From Dermatophagoides farinae (taxonomy: Eukaryota > Arthropoda > Arachnida > Sarcoptiformes > Pyroglyphidae): a stretch of DNA of 64,000 nt. The notes beneath the pieces were generated by a model, which ran no database searches, had not been told where the DNA came from, and worked only from the letters and a program-made list of their open reading frames with translations. Made by a program: the position numbers and the translations under genes. Shown piece after piece: positions 19,736 to 28,396 of this stretch. The stretch spans positions 1,741,001 through 1,805,000 of the forward strand of contig NC_134679.1 of NCBI RefSeq assembly GCF_024713945.1, read 5' to 3'. Position 1 is the first letter of the stretch; every line of letters starts with the position of its first letter.

Positions 19736-20979
19736 ATGTCCGAAGTAAGTGTCTTGTTTATCGAGATTTATTCTTGAATATATTTTTTTTGTATTGATTT
19801 TAGCCAATTAAATGTCGTGCTGCAATTCTATATGAAGAAGGTAAACCCATGGTTATTGAAGAGGTCATCATACCTGTACCTGATGATGATCAAGTTCGAA
19901 TCAAAATGATTTCAGCTGGTATCTGTGCCAGTGATGGTCATTATGTTTGGGGACAGCAAAAAATTAGTGATCTTTTCCATAAATTACCAACAGTTTTGGG
20001 TCATGAAGGTGCGGGTATTGTTGAATCGGTTGGCCAAAATGTAACCGATTTAAAACCCGGTGATCATGTGTTGACTACGTTCGTACCAAATTGTCAAAAA
20101 TGTATCCAATGTGACATACCTGATAATAATATGTGTTTGAATTTTGCTTTTAATGTTACTGGATGTCGACCGACAAGAAAATTGGCTAAAAATGGTGATA
20201 ATATCTATGGTGCTATCGGAGCTGGTACATATAGCGAATACATTACAGTTTATCGACCTCAAGTTATCAAGGTTATAAAATTGGTTACTTTTTTTGTTAT
20301 AACAATAATTCAATTATTTGTTAACCCTTTTTAGATCAAACAAACAGACAATCTTGCTAATCTTTGTGTCATTAGCTGTGCTGGTGCAACTGGTTTCTAT
20401 TCTGCCGTTTATCGAGCTGATGTTTTTGCTGGATCAAGTTGTGCAGTTTTCGGAATCGGTGGAATTGGTTTGAATACACTGCAGGGATGTAAATATAATA
20501 AAGCCAAGAATATCATTGCAATCGATATTAATCCTGATAAGCGTGATATTGCAATGCAATTTGGTGCCACTGAATTTATTAACCCAAAAGAATTGGATAA
20601 ACCATTGGAACAATATCTAATGGAAAAATATGGTGGTGTTAATTATGCATTCGATTGTTTTGGTAGCCAAGTGATTGTTGATCAGGCTGTCAATTCATTG
20701 GCAATGTCTGGTACATTCATCATGGTTGGAGTGACAGGAGCTGAAGTCACATTAAAATATCCAGTCATTATGCTCCTTTTTGGCCGTACAATCACGGGTT
20801 GTCTACTTGGTGCTAAAAAAGCTTATCTTGCCTATCCTGAAATGGTTGATTTGTATTTGGATAAAAAAATCAAAATTGACGAATTGATAACGAACAAATT
20901 TAAATTGGATCAAATCAATGAAGCATTTCAAACTTTAAAAGATGGAAAATGTATCCGATCAATAATCGTATTTGATTGA
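19736..20979 (+). CDS. zinc-dependent medium-chain alcohol dehydrogenase, copy B
   Basis: Exons 19736-19744, 19804-20271 and 20335-20979 give 373 residues and are nearly identical to copy A. Zinc ligands are conserved, including the structural set CQKCIQCDIPDNNMC. In the nucleotide-binding loop it reads SSCAVFGIGGIG, the form closest to ordinary class III dehydrogenases (AVFGLGGVG), whereas copies A and C read STCGIWG. One residue next to a catalytic-zinc Cys also differs (CAGATGF here, CAAATGF in copy A). It appears intact and, because the upstream region came along, probably shares regulation with copy A. Confidence 0.95.
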
Positions 20980-21366
20980 TTGATTGATTGATTGATTTTG
21001 TATGTCATGTTTGTATGTGTTTTTTTTTGTTTAAATCGATGAAATTAAAAAAATGACAAATAATCGATTAAAAATCAAAATTGTGGTTGGTTTTTTTTCC
21101 TAAATTTGTCTTATGAAATTCACAATTTTTTTTTGTTTTGATGTAATGGGAGAATTGATGTTTCATGGCCACTATTGAAACGTAACCGTCATTGTCAATC
21201 AAATGAATGTGAATGTATAGATTTTCAATTTCAAAGTGAATCTTCTCTTATTTAATTATCATCCATAATCACCAGTTTTTTTAACAACCAATGTATCGAA
21301 TTCAAGTACGAAATGTATAAAAAGTGTCATTTTGGCCAATAATCAATCATCAAAAAAATCATTAAG

Positions 21367-22673
21367 ATGTCTCCAAAAACACCACAAGTATGTTTTTGGT
21401 GATCATATTTTATTGTTGTTTCAATTATTATATAAAATTTTAATTTCTTATTTTTGTATGTTTATGGTTTTTAGCCAATAAAATGCCGTGCCGCTGTACT
21501 ATACAAAGAAGGTGATCCATTAGTCATCGAAGATGTAATTGTACCGGCACCAGATGTTAATCAGGTTCGAGTTAAAATGGTATCAGTTGGTATTTGTGCT
21601 ACCGATGCTCATTTTGTATGGGGTACAGCGAAAATGGAATCCTGGGGCCATAAATTACCATCAGTTTTAGGCCATGAAGGAACCGGAATCGTCGAATCGA
21701 TCGGTTCGAATGTCCATGATTTTCAAGCAGGTGATGTTGTCCTGATGTCGATTATACCACAATGTAATGAATGTGTGTTATGCCAAAATCCTAACACGAA
21801 TATCTGCATGAAAAACTTATTGCCCGATATGGGAAGTCGTGTAAGTAAAAAATTGGCCAAATCTGGTCAAGCACTTTATGGAATAATGGGTTTGGGTACA
21901 TTTTCTGATTATATCACTGTCAATCGTGATCAATTGTTCAAGGTAATCATTTCAATAATCATTCTATTCAAATAGGAATAATGGTGAAAAATTCATTTAA
22001 TTTTTAGATGACAAACAAAGTGAATATTGAAAATTCTGCTATAATCAGCTGTGCTGTGGCTACCGGATTCTATTCAGCGGTGAATTTGGGTAAAGTTTTG
22101 CCCGGAAGTACATGCGGTATCTGGGGAATTGGATCAATTGGATTGAACGTATTGCAAGGATGTAAATATAGTAAAGCAAAAAATATTATCGCAATCGATA
22201 TTACGCCAAGTAAAAAAGACATTGCCATCGAATTTGGCGCTACTGAATTTGTCAATCCCAAACAATTGAACGGTGGGCAGACATTGGAACAATATCTGCT
22301 TGAAAAATATGGTGGTGTTGATTATGCATTTGATTGTTTTGGATCACAAATTATCATTGATCAAGCATTGAAATCATTATCAGTAACTGGTACATTTGTA
22401 TTGATTGGTGTACCGCCAGATGATACAAATATTGTCTATCCATGTAATCAATTGATGACTGGCCGTACAATAACTGGTGGTTTTGTTGGTGGTAAAAAAA
22501 GTGAACAAGCCTACAGTGAATTGGTGGAAATGTATGAAAGAAAACAAATTAAAATTGATCAAATGATCACCGACAAAATTCCATTAACAAAGATTAATGT
22601 AGGATTTGATAATTTAAGATCGGGCAAAGTTATTCGTTCATTAGTAACATTTACGGGTACAAAAATGAATTAA
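21367..22673 (+). CDS. zinc-dependent medium-chain alcohol dehydrogenase, copy C
   Basis: Exons 21367-21387, 21475-21942 and 22008-22673 give 384 residues. The intron positions match copies A and B, so all three are tandem paralogues, but copy C is clearly older and more diverged. Catalytic motifs are present (ICATDAHF, LGHEGTG, ISCAVATGF) as are the four structural Cys (CNECVLCQNPNTNIC). The Rossmann loop is GIGSIG and Asp of IIAIDITPSK favours NAD. Its stop codon lies only 28 bases from that of the convergent minus-strand gene, so the two 3' UTRs must overlap. Confidence 0.94.
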
Positions 22674-22701
22674 ATTTTTATTGAAATTTTTACTCAAAAA
22701 T

Positions 22702-23369
22702 TCATTTTTGTTTCATTGCTGAAACATAATCGTTCAATAATTTTTCAATAGCATTATTATCGAATTGTCCACGATTGATAAATTGTTCAACATTTCTTTT
22801 GATTCGTGTTAAACCATTGATATTCTTGAGAAATTGTTCCAGTAAATTTTCCACATTTTCTTGACTAAAATCATCCATGTTGAATGTTTTTCCCGCTCCT
22901 CGTTTGAACCTTTGTACCGTATCTGAAAATGAATAATTGAAATAATTTGTTGAAATAATTCTTTTTGTTTAAATAAAATCTTAGAAATCTTACTGAAAAT
23001 CTGATTGAATTTTTCCTTACGATCTTGGAGAACTTTTTCAAAGCTAATGTTAGGATTATAGGCAAAATCTTGATCACTCCAACTTTTATACATGACATCA
23101 TTACGAAGCATTGGTGATTGTGCGAAAATTCGTTGAAATGCATTGAAAATGGCAACTAAAAATTGGACGAAAATTCTCACAATTTCGGCAAGATTTGTCG
23201 GTGTTAAAGAACTTGAATCGCCATTGATATCCTGTTGTTGATCGGCCAAAGATTGTTCAAGCAATTGATTGAGAATGTTTGTCACATTCGGTGGTAATGT
23301 TTGACTATGGCCAATCGGTACGATCATTAACAAAGCCCATAAAAGAATGAAAGACTGTTGTCGAGCCAT
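22702..23369 (-). CDS. small secreted protein of unknown function
   Basis: Exons 23369-22994 and 22922-22702 give 198 residues. The chosen ATG begins a clear signal peptide (MARQQSFILLWALLMIVPIG, cleavage likely after HSQ). The frame is also open upstream to 23450, but that extension has no signal-like start. The body is predicted helical, with the hydrophobic stretch IVRIFVQFLVAIFNAF near residues 68-83 and no Cys after the signal. Two dibasic sites, RFKR and RIKR, bracket a 30-residue segment and would suit furin-like cleavage. I recognise no family. It lies 102 bases downstream of the pseudoprotease on the same strand and converges on dehydrogenase C. Confidence 0.78.
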
Positions 23370-23471
23370 TTTCGATAGTTTGAACAAATTTTCAATTTGA
23401 AAAGTATTTTTATACTTTAAATCTGAAAATGAATTGAAAATGACCAGCATAAATAAAAGTTAAATTTTATT

Positions 23472-25129
23472 TTAATGAGTTATAAAAATCAATATCACAA
23501 TTGAAAGCATTAATGTTGTTAGTGGGATTGAATGTTGAATAGTCATGCCGGTACCAGGTTCCGGTTTTTCTGTAGTCGGTCTCGGTGGTTCAGGTTGTCG
23601 AATTGGCAATGCTTCCACATATGCTACAACCGTATTGATTCCACGATTATTCACGCCACGAATCATTTTAACATAGCCACTTTCGCCATAATCACGGCCC
23701 CAGCTATTTTTGACCATCCAAAAATCTAATCCATTATCATTACCCCAACCGATAATCTGTACATATTGATTATGTTGACCATCAAGACCACGATCACCAC
23801 CATCGGTCAAAATACCGCCACTATATCATGAAATGACCATTAATTATGGCAATTTATTAATAAAACTAACCTGTATAGCTGAAATTGACGATCACCAGCA
23901 TTTATCAATGCAGCGACAGGACCTTTATTGTAAATGAACCACATGATCATTTCATCGGTTGAATTTAATGGAAGATAATTATAACGATAAATCCATTCAC
24001 GCCATTCGCCCAATACTTGATGACATTCTTCTTGCTATAATAATAATAATAATAATACATAAGTGATTTAAGAATAAATAAAGGATTCATTGGATTTTTG
24101 ATCAAATCAAACTCATACTTTGCCCTTATATGGATAAGTTTTTTCCATGGTTAGACCAACTTGTTTTGTATAATGAAATATATCATCTAACATACCACCA
24201 TTACAACCATCACTTAGATAGAATGGAGGTAATACACAATCCAATACTTGTTGTTTCGATAGAACAACTAATGGATTGCCTGCAATTGCATTGGCACTTT
24301 CAACTAGTCCAACACCGGCAAATATCCAACTAGAACCACATTGTCCTTGATCTTCAATCGGTGTAACCATCTGTTTGATGATCGCAATTAATCAGAATAG
24401 AAAAATGAATGAGTAAACAAATCATATGATTTTAAACTCACACTTTGTGAACGCCAGTCAAATTGTGCCGGAAATGTGATCGATGTTTTATTTATTTTTC
24501 GAACGACATTCGTAGACATTTTATTATTCGTGAATGGTATCGGTTTATTGGCCGTTTCATGTTTGGCTGTCAATAATTTTTGATTGATAAATATTTTTTC
24601 ATTCATTCCCTTTTATTTTGAATGAAGAAAAAAAACTATCATTTGCTCAATGAATGAATACAAAGGAAACTTACAAAATCAGCAAACTTATTTATTTTCA
24701 AACGGTAAGGAACTCTACCAGTTTTAAAATCATTTTCATTATCTTTGACCATTTTCAATGAATACAGAAAGTTGGCACGACGTAGTTCGAGGTCTTCACC
24801 ATCGTAATAACGTTTATCATATTGTTTCTATTCGTTTTGATGAAATGGTCAATTAATCAATCATAAAGCTAAAAAAAAAGAAAAAAATTCATTACCTGAA
24901 ATTCGGTAAAATTTTGTTCATAACTTTTTAATCCCAATTCTTCAGCAATTTCAGTCAGATTTTGTTTTCCATATGTTGAACGCATAAATTGTAAATATTC
25001 AACCTGATGTGATTGAGCTGGAATATTTTTATTCGAATCAGCTATTAATAATTGTCGTCGCTGTCCCATAGCCGATTGATCCATAATGATTAACATTGTA
25101 GAAAACAATACAACAATAAATTGAATCAT
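23472..25129 (-). CDS. papain-fold (C1A) pseudoprotease with C-terminal membrane tail
   Basis: Exons 25129-24896, 24827-24675, 24609-24442, 24370-24119, 24034-23871 and 23820-23472 keep phase and give 439 residues. Order: signal peptide, I29-type propeptide (FLYSL and YRLKINKFADF), mature papain domain starting near FPAQFDWRSQS, a Pro/Glu/Thr linker and a hydrophobic C-terminal tail suited to a GPI anchor or membrane helix. The active site is altered: the usual CGSCW is CGSSW (Ser codon 24329-24331), and the catalytic His is Gln in NQYVQIIGWG (codon 23766-23768). The oxyanion Gln (DQGQCG) and the Asn motif (VKNSWG) remain. It is related to the group 1 mite cysteine proteases but cannot work as a normal cysteine protease. 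A binding, regulatory or structural role is inferred. Splice sites are canonical. Confidence 0.9.
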
Positions 25130-26258
25130 GATCGATTGATCAATGATGATGATAAACAACCAGTCATTGGAATGATCAATTGGCAATTGATTTGTATTCG
25201 AATTGTAATATTACAAGATACACTAAACAGCCACACCGTTAATATCCACCAAATGAGACACGAAACATAACTGTGTTTGTTTTCGTTTACCCAAATTTTT
25301 TTTTCTTCATTTGCATTGTCACCATAATGATTACCACGATGACTAGACTATGACAAAAAAAAATCATCCATTCATATTGTGAATATATTAACCTATTCTG
25401 TTTTGATCATTATAACCAAATTTGGCTCACCAATTCTACCATCATTCATCATGATCATTCATATGGAATCGTTTATGTATGTTCAACAACAATTCATTTG
25501 GTTCATTCATTTCTTGCCATTGTCATGATGACATTGGAAAAAAATGAATGTATGAATATTGGCGTTACTTTTGTTGTTGTTGTTGTCAATTGAATATATA
25601 TTGACATTAGATACATTAGAATTATTCATCAAATAATGATAACCTATCATCATCATCATCGTCATCATCATCACGTCCATACGATAATTATAGATTCAAT
25701 GTGTTTATACAATTTTTTTGTCGGCATATTTACTTTGTTTCATATGGAATAAAAATGGACAATAAATATCTTTTTTTTTGTTTGACACCTGATTTAATGG
25801 CAATTAAAAACAAAATTGTTATTATTTTCAATTTCTTATTTGTTGAGAAATCATTATTAGAAATTTAGACAAATAGTATCGTGACTGGTAATCAGAAAGA
25901 AAATGAAAAAAAATATCAGCACACACACACACACAAGTCGATAGACTTTATTTTTTTTTTATTTATAAATACTATGTCAAAATACTATGACAACATGAAA
26001 TGATGATCTCAACACCTAATAATGTTTTGGATATACATATTTGTTTTATTTGGATATAAAATACTCACAACAAAATCATTACAACTCTTTTCTTCTCAAG
26101 AGATTTATGCTACTACTAATTACTTACTTTTATCATGAGATTGATTCGGATTCTTAAAAAAAAAATCTGTAACAATAAAAAGCCATCTACGAACAAATAA
26201 ATCATTTTTTTTTGTTTGATTGATCGGATCGATAATTCAGAAGCAGCAGCAAAAAAAA
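25130..26258. other. intergenic before the SLC46-like array; duplicated flank
   Basis: AT-rich with an (AC)n run near 25919-25935. From about 25605 onward it is duplicated at 29714-30336, where it forms the upstream region of transporter copy C. No gene seen. Confidence 0.7.
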
Positions 26259-27924
26259 ATGTCTACATTATTTCAAACACTTCGAAGAAACAATTTCTTC
26301 CTATTCGATGTTTATATTGTTATATTTTTATTTAGCTATGCAATGGAGATTCTTACGATCAACTATTTAGTGCAGGATAAAATATGCCGTATCCGTTATA
26401 ATCAAAGTAAATTTTTCTGTCAACATATTCATGAAGATATTTTTAATGGTGATGAAAAAATTACCAAAGATCATATTCTATCTGCGGCTGCCTTGTATAA
26501 TAATTACAAGTAAGATTCGTTTTATTGTAATTGAAATTGAAATTTTATCTAATTCTTTATAGAAATATAATACAGGCTATACCAATGTTTATTTGGTCAT
26601 TATTTTTTGGTTCATTTTTGGATCGACAAACCGGTGCAACCAGAATGATATTTGCCTGGATGAATATAATCGGTGTATTGACTACGGCTTTTTATCTGAT
26701 AAATATTTTTAATTTTTCCATTGATCCATATTATTTATTATTGGCTGGTATATCTACCTGTTTGACTGGTAGTATGGCCACTTTTTTAACTGTTACTCAT
26801 CGTTATATTATTATCAATACTGATCCAGAATATCGCACTATAAGGTTTACTATATTTCAAATCAGTCTATTAATGGGTGAGTCGATTTTACTGTAATTTT
26901 ATTAGTTATAGATAAATAATAATTTATTGACTGATCAGCTATATCATTGGGTTCATTGCTTGGTGGTAATCTAATTCATTCGGTTTCGGATCGTGGTGAA
27001 TTATTACGAAATTATGATCTCAACATGTGGATCGGTTTAGCTTTGCAAGTTGGTTCCTTCTTCATGATTTTAGTTATTGGCATTGATCGAAAAGTAACTG
27101 ATCCAATAAATTCACCAGAAAACGATGAAGATAATGATGCAACTATTGTCGATGAAATTGATAGATCAAGTCCTGTATTAAGTGGTGATCGAGAATCATA
27201 TTCATCCATAACCGATACAAATATCGAATCGACAACAACGGTCATAAAATTTTCATTATGTCAACATGTCAAATGTGCATTTAGTTCATTTTTCGACATT
27301 GAGAATGTTCGACAAACAATTCGATGTCTAACTAAACCACGAATTAATCAAATTCGTGAACAAATCATTCTGCTCATATTGCTACTATTTCTTCAATTTG
27401 TCAACTATCTTGGATTGGATTCAATGTTTTTACAATTCTCTCAAAAAGTTTATCGATTCGATTCGAAAACTTATGCGAATGTAACTGCATTTTCTAAAAT
27501 AATGCCAAATATCATATTATTCATAAGTTCACATGTTCTAGTCAAATGTCTTAAATGGAAAGATGGAACCATTTTTGCTATAACATTTACAGCTGCATTG
27601 ATAAGTCAAATTTTAATAGGTACATTCACTAATCCAGCTGTTTATCTAGCAGCATTGATTATTGGATCAATTGGTGGATTATCATCGATTGTAATGAAAA
27701 CGAAAATTGCTAGATTGATTCCCAAAGATGAAGTTGGTAAAATTTTCAGCCTAATATCAACATTGGAATCATTAGCACCGTTTTTTGGTACATTAATATT
27801 TTCCACCATATTTTCGGCCAGTGTTTCAACCTATCCCACGCTAATTTATCATGCTGCTGCAGCTATGACATTGGTTTGTTTGATATTAGCTCTATTTCAA
27901 GATTTATATTTTCATAATCAATAA
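26259..27924 (+). CDS. SLC46-like major facilitator transporter, copy A (intact)
   Basis: Exons 26259-26509, 26563-26876 and 26939-27924 give 516 residues with about twelve hydrophobic helices and a central hydrophilic loop (about residues 230-290). The A-loop after helix 2 reads FGSFLDRQTGATR, a variant of the MFS motif GxxxDrxGRR as seen in SLC46 (PCFT/HCP1) proteins. The first outer loop carries Cys residues (QDKICRIRYNQ, FFCQHIHE). SLC46 members move folate, haem-like or other organic anions with protons; the substrate here is unknown. It heads a four-gene tandem array, and its upstream 650 bases are repeated before copy C. Confidence 0.85.
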
Positions 27925-28396
27925 AAAAAAATCTGAAAAAAATTAATGCTTATAAATCGATTATTATTGTGCATACACTGCATTTATTTATCATCAATCA
28001 ATTTTATTTATCAGAAGTTTGTTTTTGTTTTATAAACAAACCACACATGAAGCGGATGAAAAAAATGAATTAATCATAATTTGCCAATAAATTGCCATTA
28101 GTTTGACAAGACACGAGAGGATCACTAAAAAAAAGATCTCAACAATCAACACCTTCTGGATTTTTGATTTCGAACTAATGATGCGACGTATTTTGTTGGA
28201 GCTTCTGATCAGCTGCTTTTAAAAGTTCCATAATTATGGTTTTTAGTTGATAATAATGATGATAAGATATAAAATGCTATTCTTATACGTTAGGAAAACC
28301 ATCCACGTCAATTTCTATATTCTCAACAAATCAACGACAACATTATTCATGTTTGATTGATTGATCAATAATCCAATGGGACCAAACCTGACAAAA
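27925..28396. other. intergenic between transporter copies A and B
   Basis: Near-identical to 31998-32477 between copies C and D. Probable 3' UTR and promoter. No gene. Confidence 0.75.

Follow-up and report, generated by a model that had tools for sequence, protein, structure and literature searches.

The window analysed here is a stretch of 64,000 nucleotides (nt) of the genome of the house dust mite Dermatophagoides farinae (C3:1741001-1805000, in an assembly of 62.4 Mb and 22 contigs). On its minus strand lies a gene of the C1A, or papain-type, protease family, the product of which carries serine and glutamine at the places of the catalytic cysteine and histidine. The double replacement is conserved in a second species, Dermatophagoides pteronyssinus, groove residues are largely retained, and hydrophobic ends are found in four members of the family. 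The organization of the gene, as obtained by in-silico splicing, translation, Pfam profiles and alignments, is the following (aa, amino acids).

23472..25129, minus: whole coding gene, six exons, 439 aa (splicing and translation; the public D. farinae protein P0001 is identical through residue 431 of 439)
24896..25129, minus: exon 1, signal-peptide-like hydrophobic start (about aa 1-22), N-terminal extension (aa 23-73), start of the I29 domain
24675..24827, minus: exon 2, I29 propeptide domain (Pfam PF08246, E 4e-9)
24442..24609, minus: exon 3, end of the propeptide and start of the papain domain (splicing, Pfam)
24119..24370, minus: exon 4, papain domain including CGSSW (splicing, Pfam)
23871..24034, minus: exon 5, papain domain (splicing)
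23472..23820, minus: exon 6, end of the papain domain, Pro/Thr linker, hydrophobic tail and stop (splicing)
24329..24331, minus: codon of Ser199 (AGT), at the place of the catalytic Cys (papain C25; codon and alignment columns)
23766..23768, minus: codon of Gln342 (CAA), at the place of the catalytic His (papain H159; codon and alignment columns)
23706..23708, minus: codon of Asn362 (AAT), papain N175, retained (codon and alignment)
23547..23606, minus: Pro/Thr-rich linker, aa 396-415, PIRQPEPPRPTTEKPEPGTG (16/21 identical in D. pteronyssinus over aa 396-416)
23481..23528, minus: hydrophobic C-terminal segment, aa 422-437, IPLTTLMLSIVILIFI, candidate GPI (glycosylphosphatidylinositol)-attachment signal (Kyte-Doolittle 2.67 over 16 residues)
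23466..23471, minus: AATAAA immediately past the stop, possible poly(A) signal (a weak indication in A+T-rich DNA)

The five introns are short (50-84 nt) and all conform to the GT-AG rule (5/5), and the spliced coding sequence, 1320 nt including the stop, contains no internal stops. The I29 propeptide spans aa 74-128, the Peptidase_C1 domain (PF00112, E 2e-58) aa 176-391; profile and structure agree on the C1A fold, the pro-form of Blo t 1 being the best structural match. The hydrophobic start (about aa 1-22) is a putative signal peptide, and is separated from I29 by the N-terminal extension of about 50 residues. Papain-type proteins usually carry three disulfides; the whole protein has only four Cys, and can therefore form no more than two of them. 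Rfam matches were not found in the interval 20000-28000 of the window.

Catalytic residues and C-terminal tail

The oxyanion Gln193 (papain Gln19) and Asn362 (papain Asn175) are both in place, while the residues that distinguish an active C1A enzyme are not: Cys25 is changed into Ser199 within CGSSW, His159 into Gln342. The latter assignment holds in family alignments. Distant relatives (PDB chains, Der f 1) give ambiguous alignments, as His340 is located two residues upstream of Gln342, and gaps bring either H340 or N341 under the catalytic His. Two relatives, P0006 and P0007, align to the protein in this region without gaps (YNHYV and YNHLV, respectively, against HNQYV), and this settles the assignment. 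In the AlphaFold model of P0005, the D. pteronyssinus orthologue, a strand starts at the corresponding Gln (residue 348); the corresponding strand of papain starts at the catalytic His.

How rare the two changes are was assessed by aligning 71 proteins chosen from the 228 C1A matches listed in two protein searches. The catalytic Cys column holds Cys in 64, Ser in 6 and Ala in 1, the catalytic His column His in 68 and Gln in 3, and the oxyanion Gln and Asn are present in 71/71. Both catalytic residues are missing in three proteins only, all from Dermatophagoides (P0001, P0002 and P0005). In the same alignment Ser replaces the catalytic Cys, and His is retained, in P0010, from the mite Brevipalpus obovatus, P0026 and P0044; P0070 carries Ala along with a retained His. 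The whole window was scanned in six frames with three short patterns for an exon restoring either residue, and only CGSSW (24340) and NQYV (23771) were retrieved; a differently spelled exon would escape such a scan. The first-pass annotation had described an intact gene, with conserved fold, propeptide, six clean exons and hydrophobic tail, in which both catalytic residues had been replaced; splicing, Pfam profiles and alignment columns bear this description out.

The hydrophobic segment stops two residues short of the C-terminus. The best hydropathy value over 16 residues, 2.67 in this protein, is 3.16 in P0005, 2.12 in P0006 and 1.91 in P0007. By inspection, the layout resembles that of GPI-anchored proteins, with a signal-like start, and at the other end small residues (GTG), a short spacer (MTIQHS), 16 hydrophobic residues and no cytosolic tail; the tail appears to fit a GPI signal better than a transmembrane anchor. 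Linker and tail are found together only in this gene among 28 C1A C-terminal ends of the D. farinae genome, namely the window gene, 26 open reading frames (ORFs) reaching profile position 310, and the ORF L032, spliced by eye. A hydrophobic overhang noticed in L032 turned out to be a splice donor, and an ordinary, tail-less end follows past the next acceptor.

Conservation, relatives and known systems

P0005 is identical to the window protein at 364 of 438 aligned residues. It keeps both Ser and Gln, and ends with a hydrophobic tail that has diverged in sequence. Identity reaches 198/220 (90%) in the papain domain, 48/55 in I29, 42/47 in the stretch linking I29 to the papain domain and 42/51 in the N-terminal extension, and falls to 8/22 in the signal region. 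Twenty of the 22 tabulated groove and active-site positions agree between the two species. The mature domains of the active pair Der f 1/Der p 1 share 183/222 residues (82%), hence less than the papain domains compared here (Fisher p 0.027, one pair being set against one pair); the D. farinae Der f 1 gene, once spliced, equals the PDB chain 5vpk over all 223 residues. A domain of inactive type thus shows no less conservation than its active counterpart, which argues for purifying selection acting on the papain domain, and against decay.

Close copies of the gene were not found in the D. farinae genome, where exon 6 matched 21 other places at 36-48% identity, essentially in the papain part (best E 2e-9). 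A maximum-likelihood tree was built from 36 papain domains. Four of these belong to the family, 17 come from further D. farinae genes, among them Der f 1, and 15 complete the set; unspliced intron-bearing D. farinae C1A genes in L029, L030, L031, L032, L033 and L045, and one cathepsin B-like ORF in L035, were excluded. The window protein, P0005, P0006 and P0007 form one clade (support 99.9/100). P0006 and P0007 retain the catalytic Cys (CGSCW) and His, carry the motif RGxNNRGIN, lack the Cys pair of the third disulfide, as does the window protein, and are hydrophobic at their C-terminal end or close to it. Arg occupies the C389 column in exactly P0005, P0001, P0002, P0006 and P0007 of the 71 aligned proteins. 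Since these tailed relatives keep both Cys and His, the tail looks older than the loss of catalysis, and the simplest reading of the sequences is that of a tailed, catalytically active ancestor which lost catalysis later. Orthologues from Sarcoptes, Psoroptes, Blomia and Tyrophagus were not recognised by name among 117 matches listed and the best 120 of 727; most matches are nameless, and P0006 itself is outside the 120.

The protein had been initially regarded as a relative of the mite group 1 allergens. A distant relation stands, as four of the five introns fall at the same column and phase as in the Der f 1 gene. The shared gene structure may predate the group, and is compatible either with an ancestor shared with the group 1 line or with the retention of older introns. 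Group 1 membership is not sustained by identity, which is 32% to Der f 1 (65/203 aligned positions), below the yardstick of >35% to Der f 1/Der p 1 derived from the D1 cluster in PMC10722327. Group 1 allergens (Der f 1, Der p 1, Blo t 1) share with the window protein a pre-pro papain fold but, unlike it, have an active Cys-His pair and no tail.

According to a 2023 survey, D. farinae has 25 cysteine protease genes, the catalytic triad being intact in 22, and inactive tandem cysteine protease genes have been reported in D. pteronyssinus (PMC10722327). The window gene is probably one of the three D. farinae genes with no intact triad, and therefore the catalytic loss as such is probably on record. 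In the main text of that survey the words serine, transmembrane and crustapain have no occurrences (0 each), and neither the Ser replacement nor the tail is discussed. Nor do the portions of PMC10722327 and PMC5956821 examined deal with the Ser/Gln pair of this gene, its tail, the active relatives that have tails, or the doubtful gene models. A literature search retrieved nothing on GPI-anchored cysteine proteases of Dermatophagoides, on Dermatophagoides crustapain, or, in a query narrowed by two further terms, on GPI-anchored cathepsin L, and none of the articles on house dust mite pseudoproteases, judged by title and the start of the abstract, deals with this gene.

The combination of Cys/His loss and tail had been singled out as unusual; the three D. 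farinae genes just mentioned, the scabies mite proteins SMIPP-Ca and SMIPP-Cb discussed below, and cathepsin L-like enzymes of Entamoeba make it less so. The serine-type SERA proteins of Plasmodium (SERA5 group) carry Ser for Cys in a papain-like domain, and those of rodent parasites and of certain further species have lost the His as well; they belong to a different phylum, have a different architecture, and no such tail is described in the parts of PMC2878606 considered. Most EhCP-B enzymes of Entamoeba, which are cathepsin L-like, have hydrophobic or predicted GPI/transmembrane C-termini; in contrast to the mite protein, those in the part of the table considered mostly retain the catalytic Cys and His (PMC1913524). 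TrCB1.6 of Trichobilharzia is an expressed, inactive cathepsin paralogue in an animal, and binds cystatin weakly; it differs in being of the cathepsin B type, with Cys changed to Gly, and no tail is mentioned in the text of PMC7054455 considered.

A few other C1A genes of D. farinae attracted attention. In L036:1794-2711 (C2:7367554-7368207, plus) a second gene has lost the catalytic Cys, its motif being CGSGY (Cys to Gly, Trp26 to Tyr); His and Asn are retained, and an intact tandem copy lies about 0.65 kb downstream. Three adjacent genes in L033 (C6:4883586-4887553) feature CGSCA, Ala replacing the Trp which follows the catalytic Cys. A short group 1-like remnant, likely a gene fragment, is found on the minus strand of L030, near 3208, between two group 1-like genes.

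Alternative explanations

Four public D. farinae models (P0001-P0004) join the window gene to its neighbor.

22705..23369, minus: downstream gene, a separate small and putatively secreted protein, fused to the window gene in the four models

If these models were correct, the end of the tail would be spliced out, the transcript would continue into the downstream coding region, and the product would be a soluble fusion with no membrane anchor. All four depart from the frame at LSI, by way of a common donor at 23498 (fusion region 23231-23498, minus), P0001 and P0002 share the acceptor as well, and automated annotation may rest on RNA-seq. However, the donor (ATT/GTGATA) lacks the G at +5 which is found in 9/10 introns of the window gene and Der f 1, the acceptor of P0001/P0002 differs from that of P0003/P0004, and P0003 and P0004 contain an internal Met and a signal-peptide-like stretch. 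Moreover, both D. pteronyssinus (P0120) and a third relative (P0122) have the downstream protein as a separate entry that begins with a signal-peptide-like stretch of its own, and P0005 terminates in the hydrophobic tail, with no fusion. For these reasons the evidence favours the view that the four fusions are annotation errors, a soluble product seems improbable, and the public gene models at this locus are flagged as doubtful. The downstream protein has only five matches, one from D. pteronyssinus, and none of the five has a precomputed Pfam domain. Its core is strongly conserved (TLPPNVTNILNQLLEQSLA and EIVRIFVQFLVA), and paralogues were not found in the D. farinae genome, apart from the two exons of the gene itself.

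The loss of two catalytic residues, and a Cys count below the usual, might denote a decaying pseudogene. This is extremely unlikely, given that the ORF and splice sites are intact in D. farinae, the orthologue has been preserved to the extent reported above, the papain domain is more conserved than in the active Der f 1/Der p 1 pair, and the missing third-disulfide Cys are missing in the catalytically intact relatives as well. Alternatively, the protein might still be an enzyme, Ser199 acting with a substitute base such as His340, located two residues away from the missing His and conserved in D. pteronyssinus, with Gln193 and Asn362 also in place. Yet, the H340 column holds Tyr in the nearest relatives P0006 and P0007, and Ser in the absence of His is expected to be a very poor nucleophile in the papain fold, so that residual catalysis is very unlikely.

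A further alternative concerns the SMIPP-Cs, a family that, according to PMC5956821, is unique to scabies mites and has not been seen in house dust mites. The window protein might be their orthologue, and the family would then be older than parasitism. Both are papain-fold mite proteins, and the Cys to Ser change, which in SMIPP-Cs goes with His to Gln or Leu, is found in the window protein; SMIPP-Ca and SMIPP-Cb carry precisely Cys to Ser and His to Gln (PMC5956821). Both are far from group 1, SMIPP-Cs being 22-26% identical to Der p 1, the window protein, as said, 32% to Der f 1 (203 positions). Antibodies to a SMIPP-Cc peptide gave bands in dust mite lysates, a result which fits many proteins (PMC7979781). 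In contrast, SMIPP-Ca and SMIPP-Cb have no predicted propeptide, have four predicted disulfides and are multicopy (PMC5956821), whereas the window protein has I29, a tail, four Cys in total and no close copy. The parts of SMIPP-Cs which have been cloned, predicted mature parts only, lack a hydrophobic tail, their ends, deduced from the published reverse primers, being VRLGRPEF, PFENEPEDFE and PFEAEPDDS (PMC5956821). The tree of the 2023 survey assigns to the tandem group 1 cluster D1 five genes of S. scabiei in which the catalytic sites are mutated, and which are presumably the SMIPP-Cs (PMC10722327); Der f 1 does not lie close to the window gene. No Sarcoptes name appeared among the matches inspected by name, mostly nameless and from a search that is not exhaustive. 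On balance, orthology to SMIPP-Cs is unlikely.

Proposed role of the protein

The reading that we prefer, and to which we would assign an even chance, is that the gene encodes a GPI-linked secreted pseudoprotease which descended from a tailed intact protease, and serves as a surface binder by using the retained groove. The product would be secreted as a papain-fold protein with a propeptide, and the C-terminal tail would hold it on the outer face of the cell membrane, most likely by a GPI anchor. The ancestor would have been a tailed and catalytically intact protease; both catalytic residues would have been lost in the Dermatophagoides line, the remainder of the domain being kept under constraint. 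Once on the surface, the protein would most likely bind ligands through the groove, and our leading guess is that it may capture cystatin-type inhibitors or peptides, as a sink, in the vicinity of the active digestive proteases. We infer in this way the inactivity and GPI anchoring of the protein, its location, ligand and role. In our judgement a GPI-anchored surface form is rather probable when set against alternative membrane-bound or soluble states. Among specific roles, that of a cystatin or peptide sink ranks first, though it is proposed tentatively. The D. farinae genome encodes the Gaa1 subunit, needed for GPI attachment, and contains five cystatin-domain matches; the needed parts thus seem to exist, which does not by itself demonstrate the role.

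Several observations weigh against the scenario of a GPI-linked binder. The sequence of the tail is weakly conserved (10/22 aligned residues between the window protein and P0005), and the segment may be a transmembrane anchor rather than a GPI signal. The models P0001-P0004 swap the last eight residues for the fused downstream protein, and the fact that four models choose the same donor speaks against a genuine tail. The window protein has Tyr at papain position 160, where this residue may reduce the width of the S2 pocket. As to the origin of the family, the mutual placement of P0006 and P0007 is weak (55/92), six residues come after the hydrophobic stretch of P0007, and P0006 seems to include an unspliced intron. 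Finally, the precedent for cystatin binding provided by TrCB1.6 appears weak in its own data (PMC7054455).

The scenario may be extended to an ancient astigmatid family of GPI-anchored cathepsin L-like proteases, turned wholesale into a surface decoy in Dermatophagoides, the same two substitutions having occurred separately in SMIPP-Ca/b. The decoy would take up cystatins at the gut surface, and thereby keep Der f 1 and Der p 1 active. We consider this larger picture unlikely as a whole.

The catalytically intact tailed relatives make it possible to compare the states before and after a surface protease may have turned into a pseudoprotease, and such comparison is available in cultured, sequenced species of importance in allergy. 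SMIPP-Cs have been described as confined to scabies mites and tied to parasitism (PMC5956821). Free-living dust mites also have a conserved protein of papain fold bearing this Ser/Gln pair, which shows that a parasitic life is not required for such a protein.
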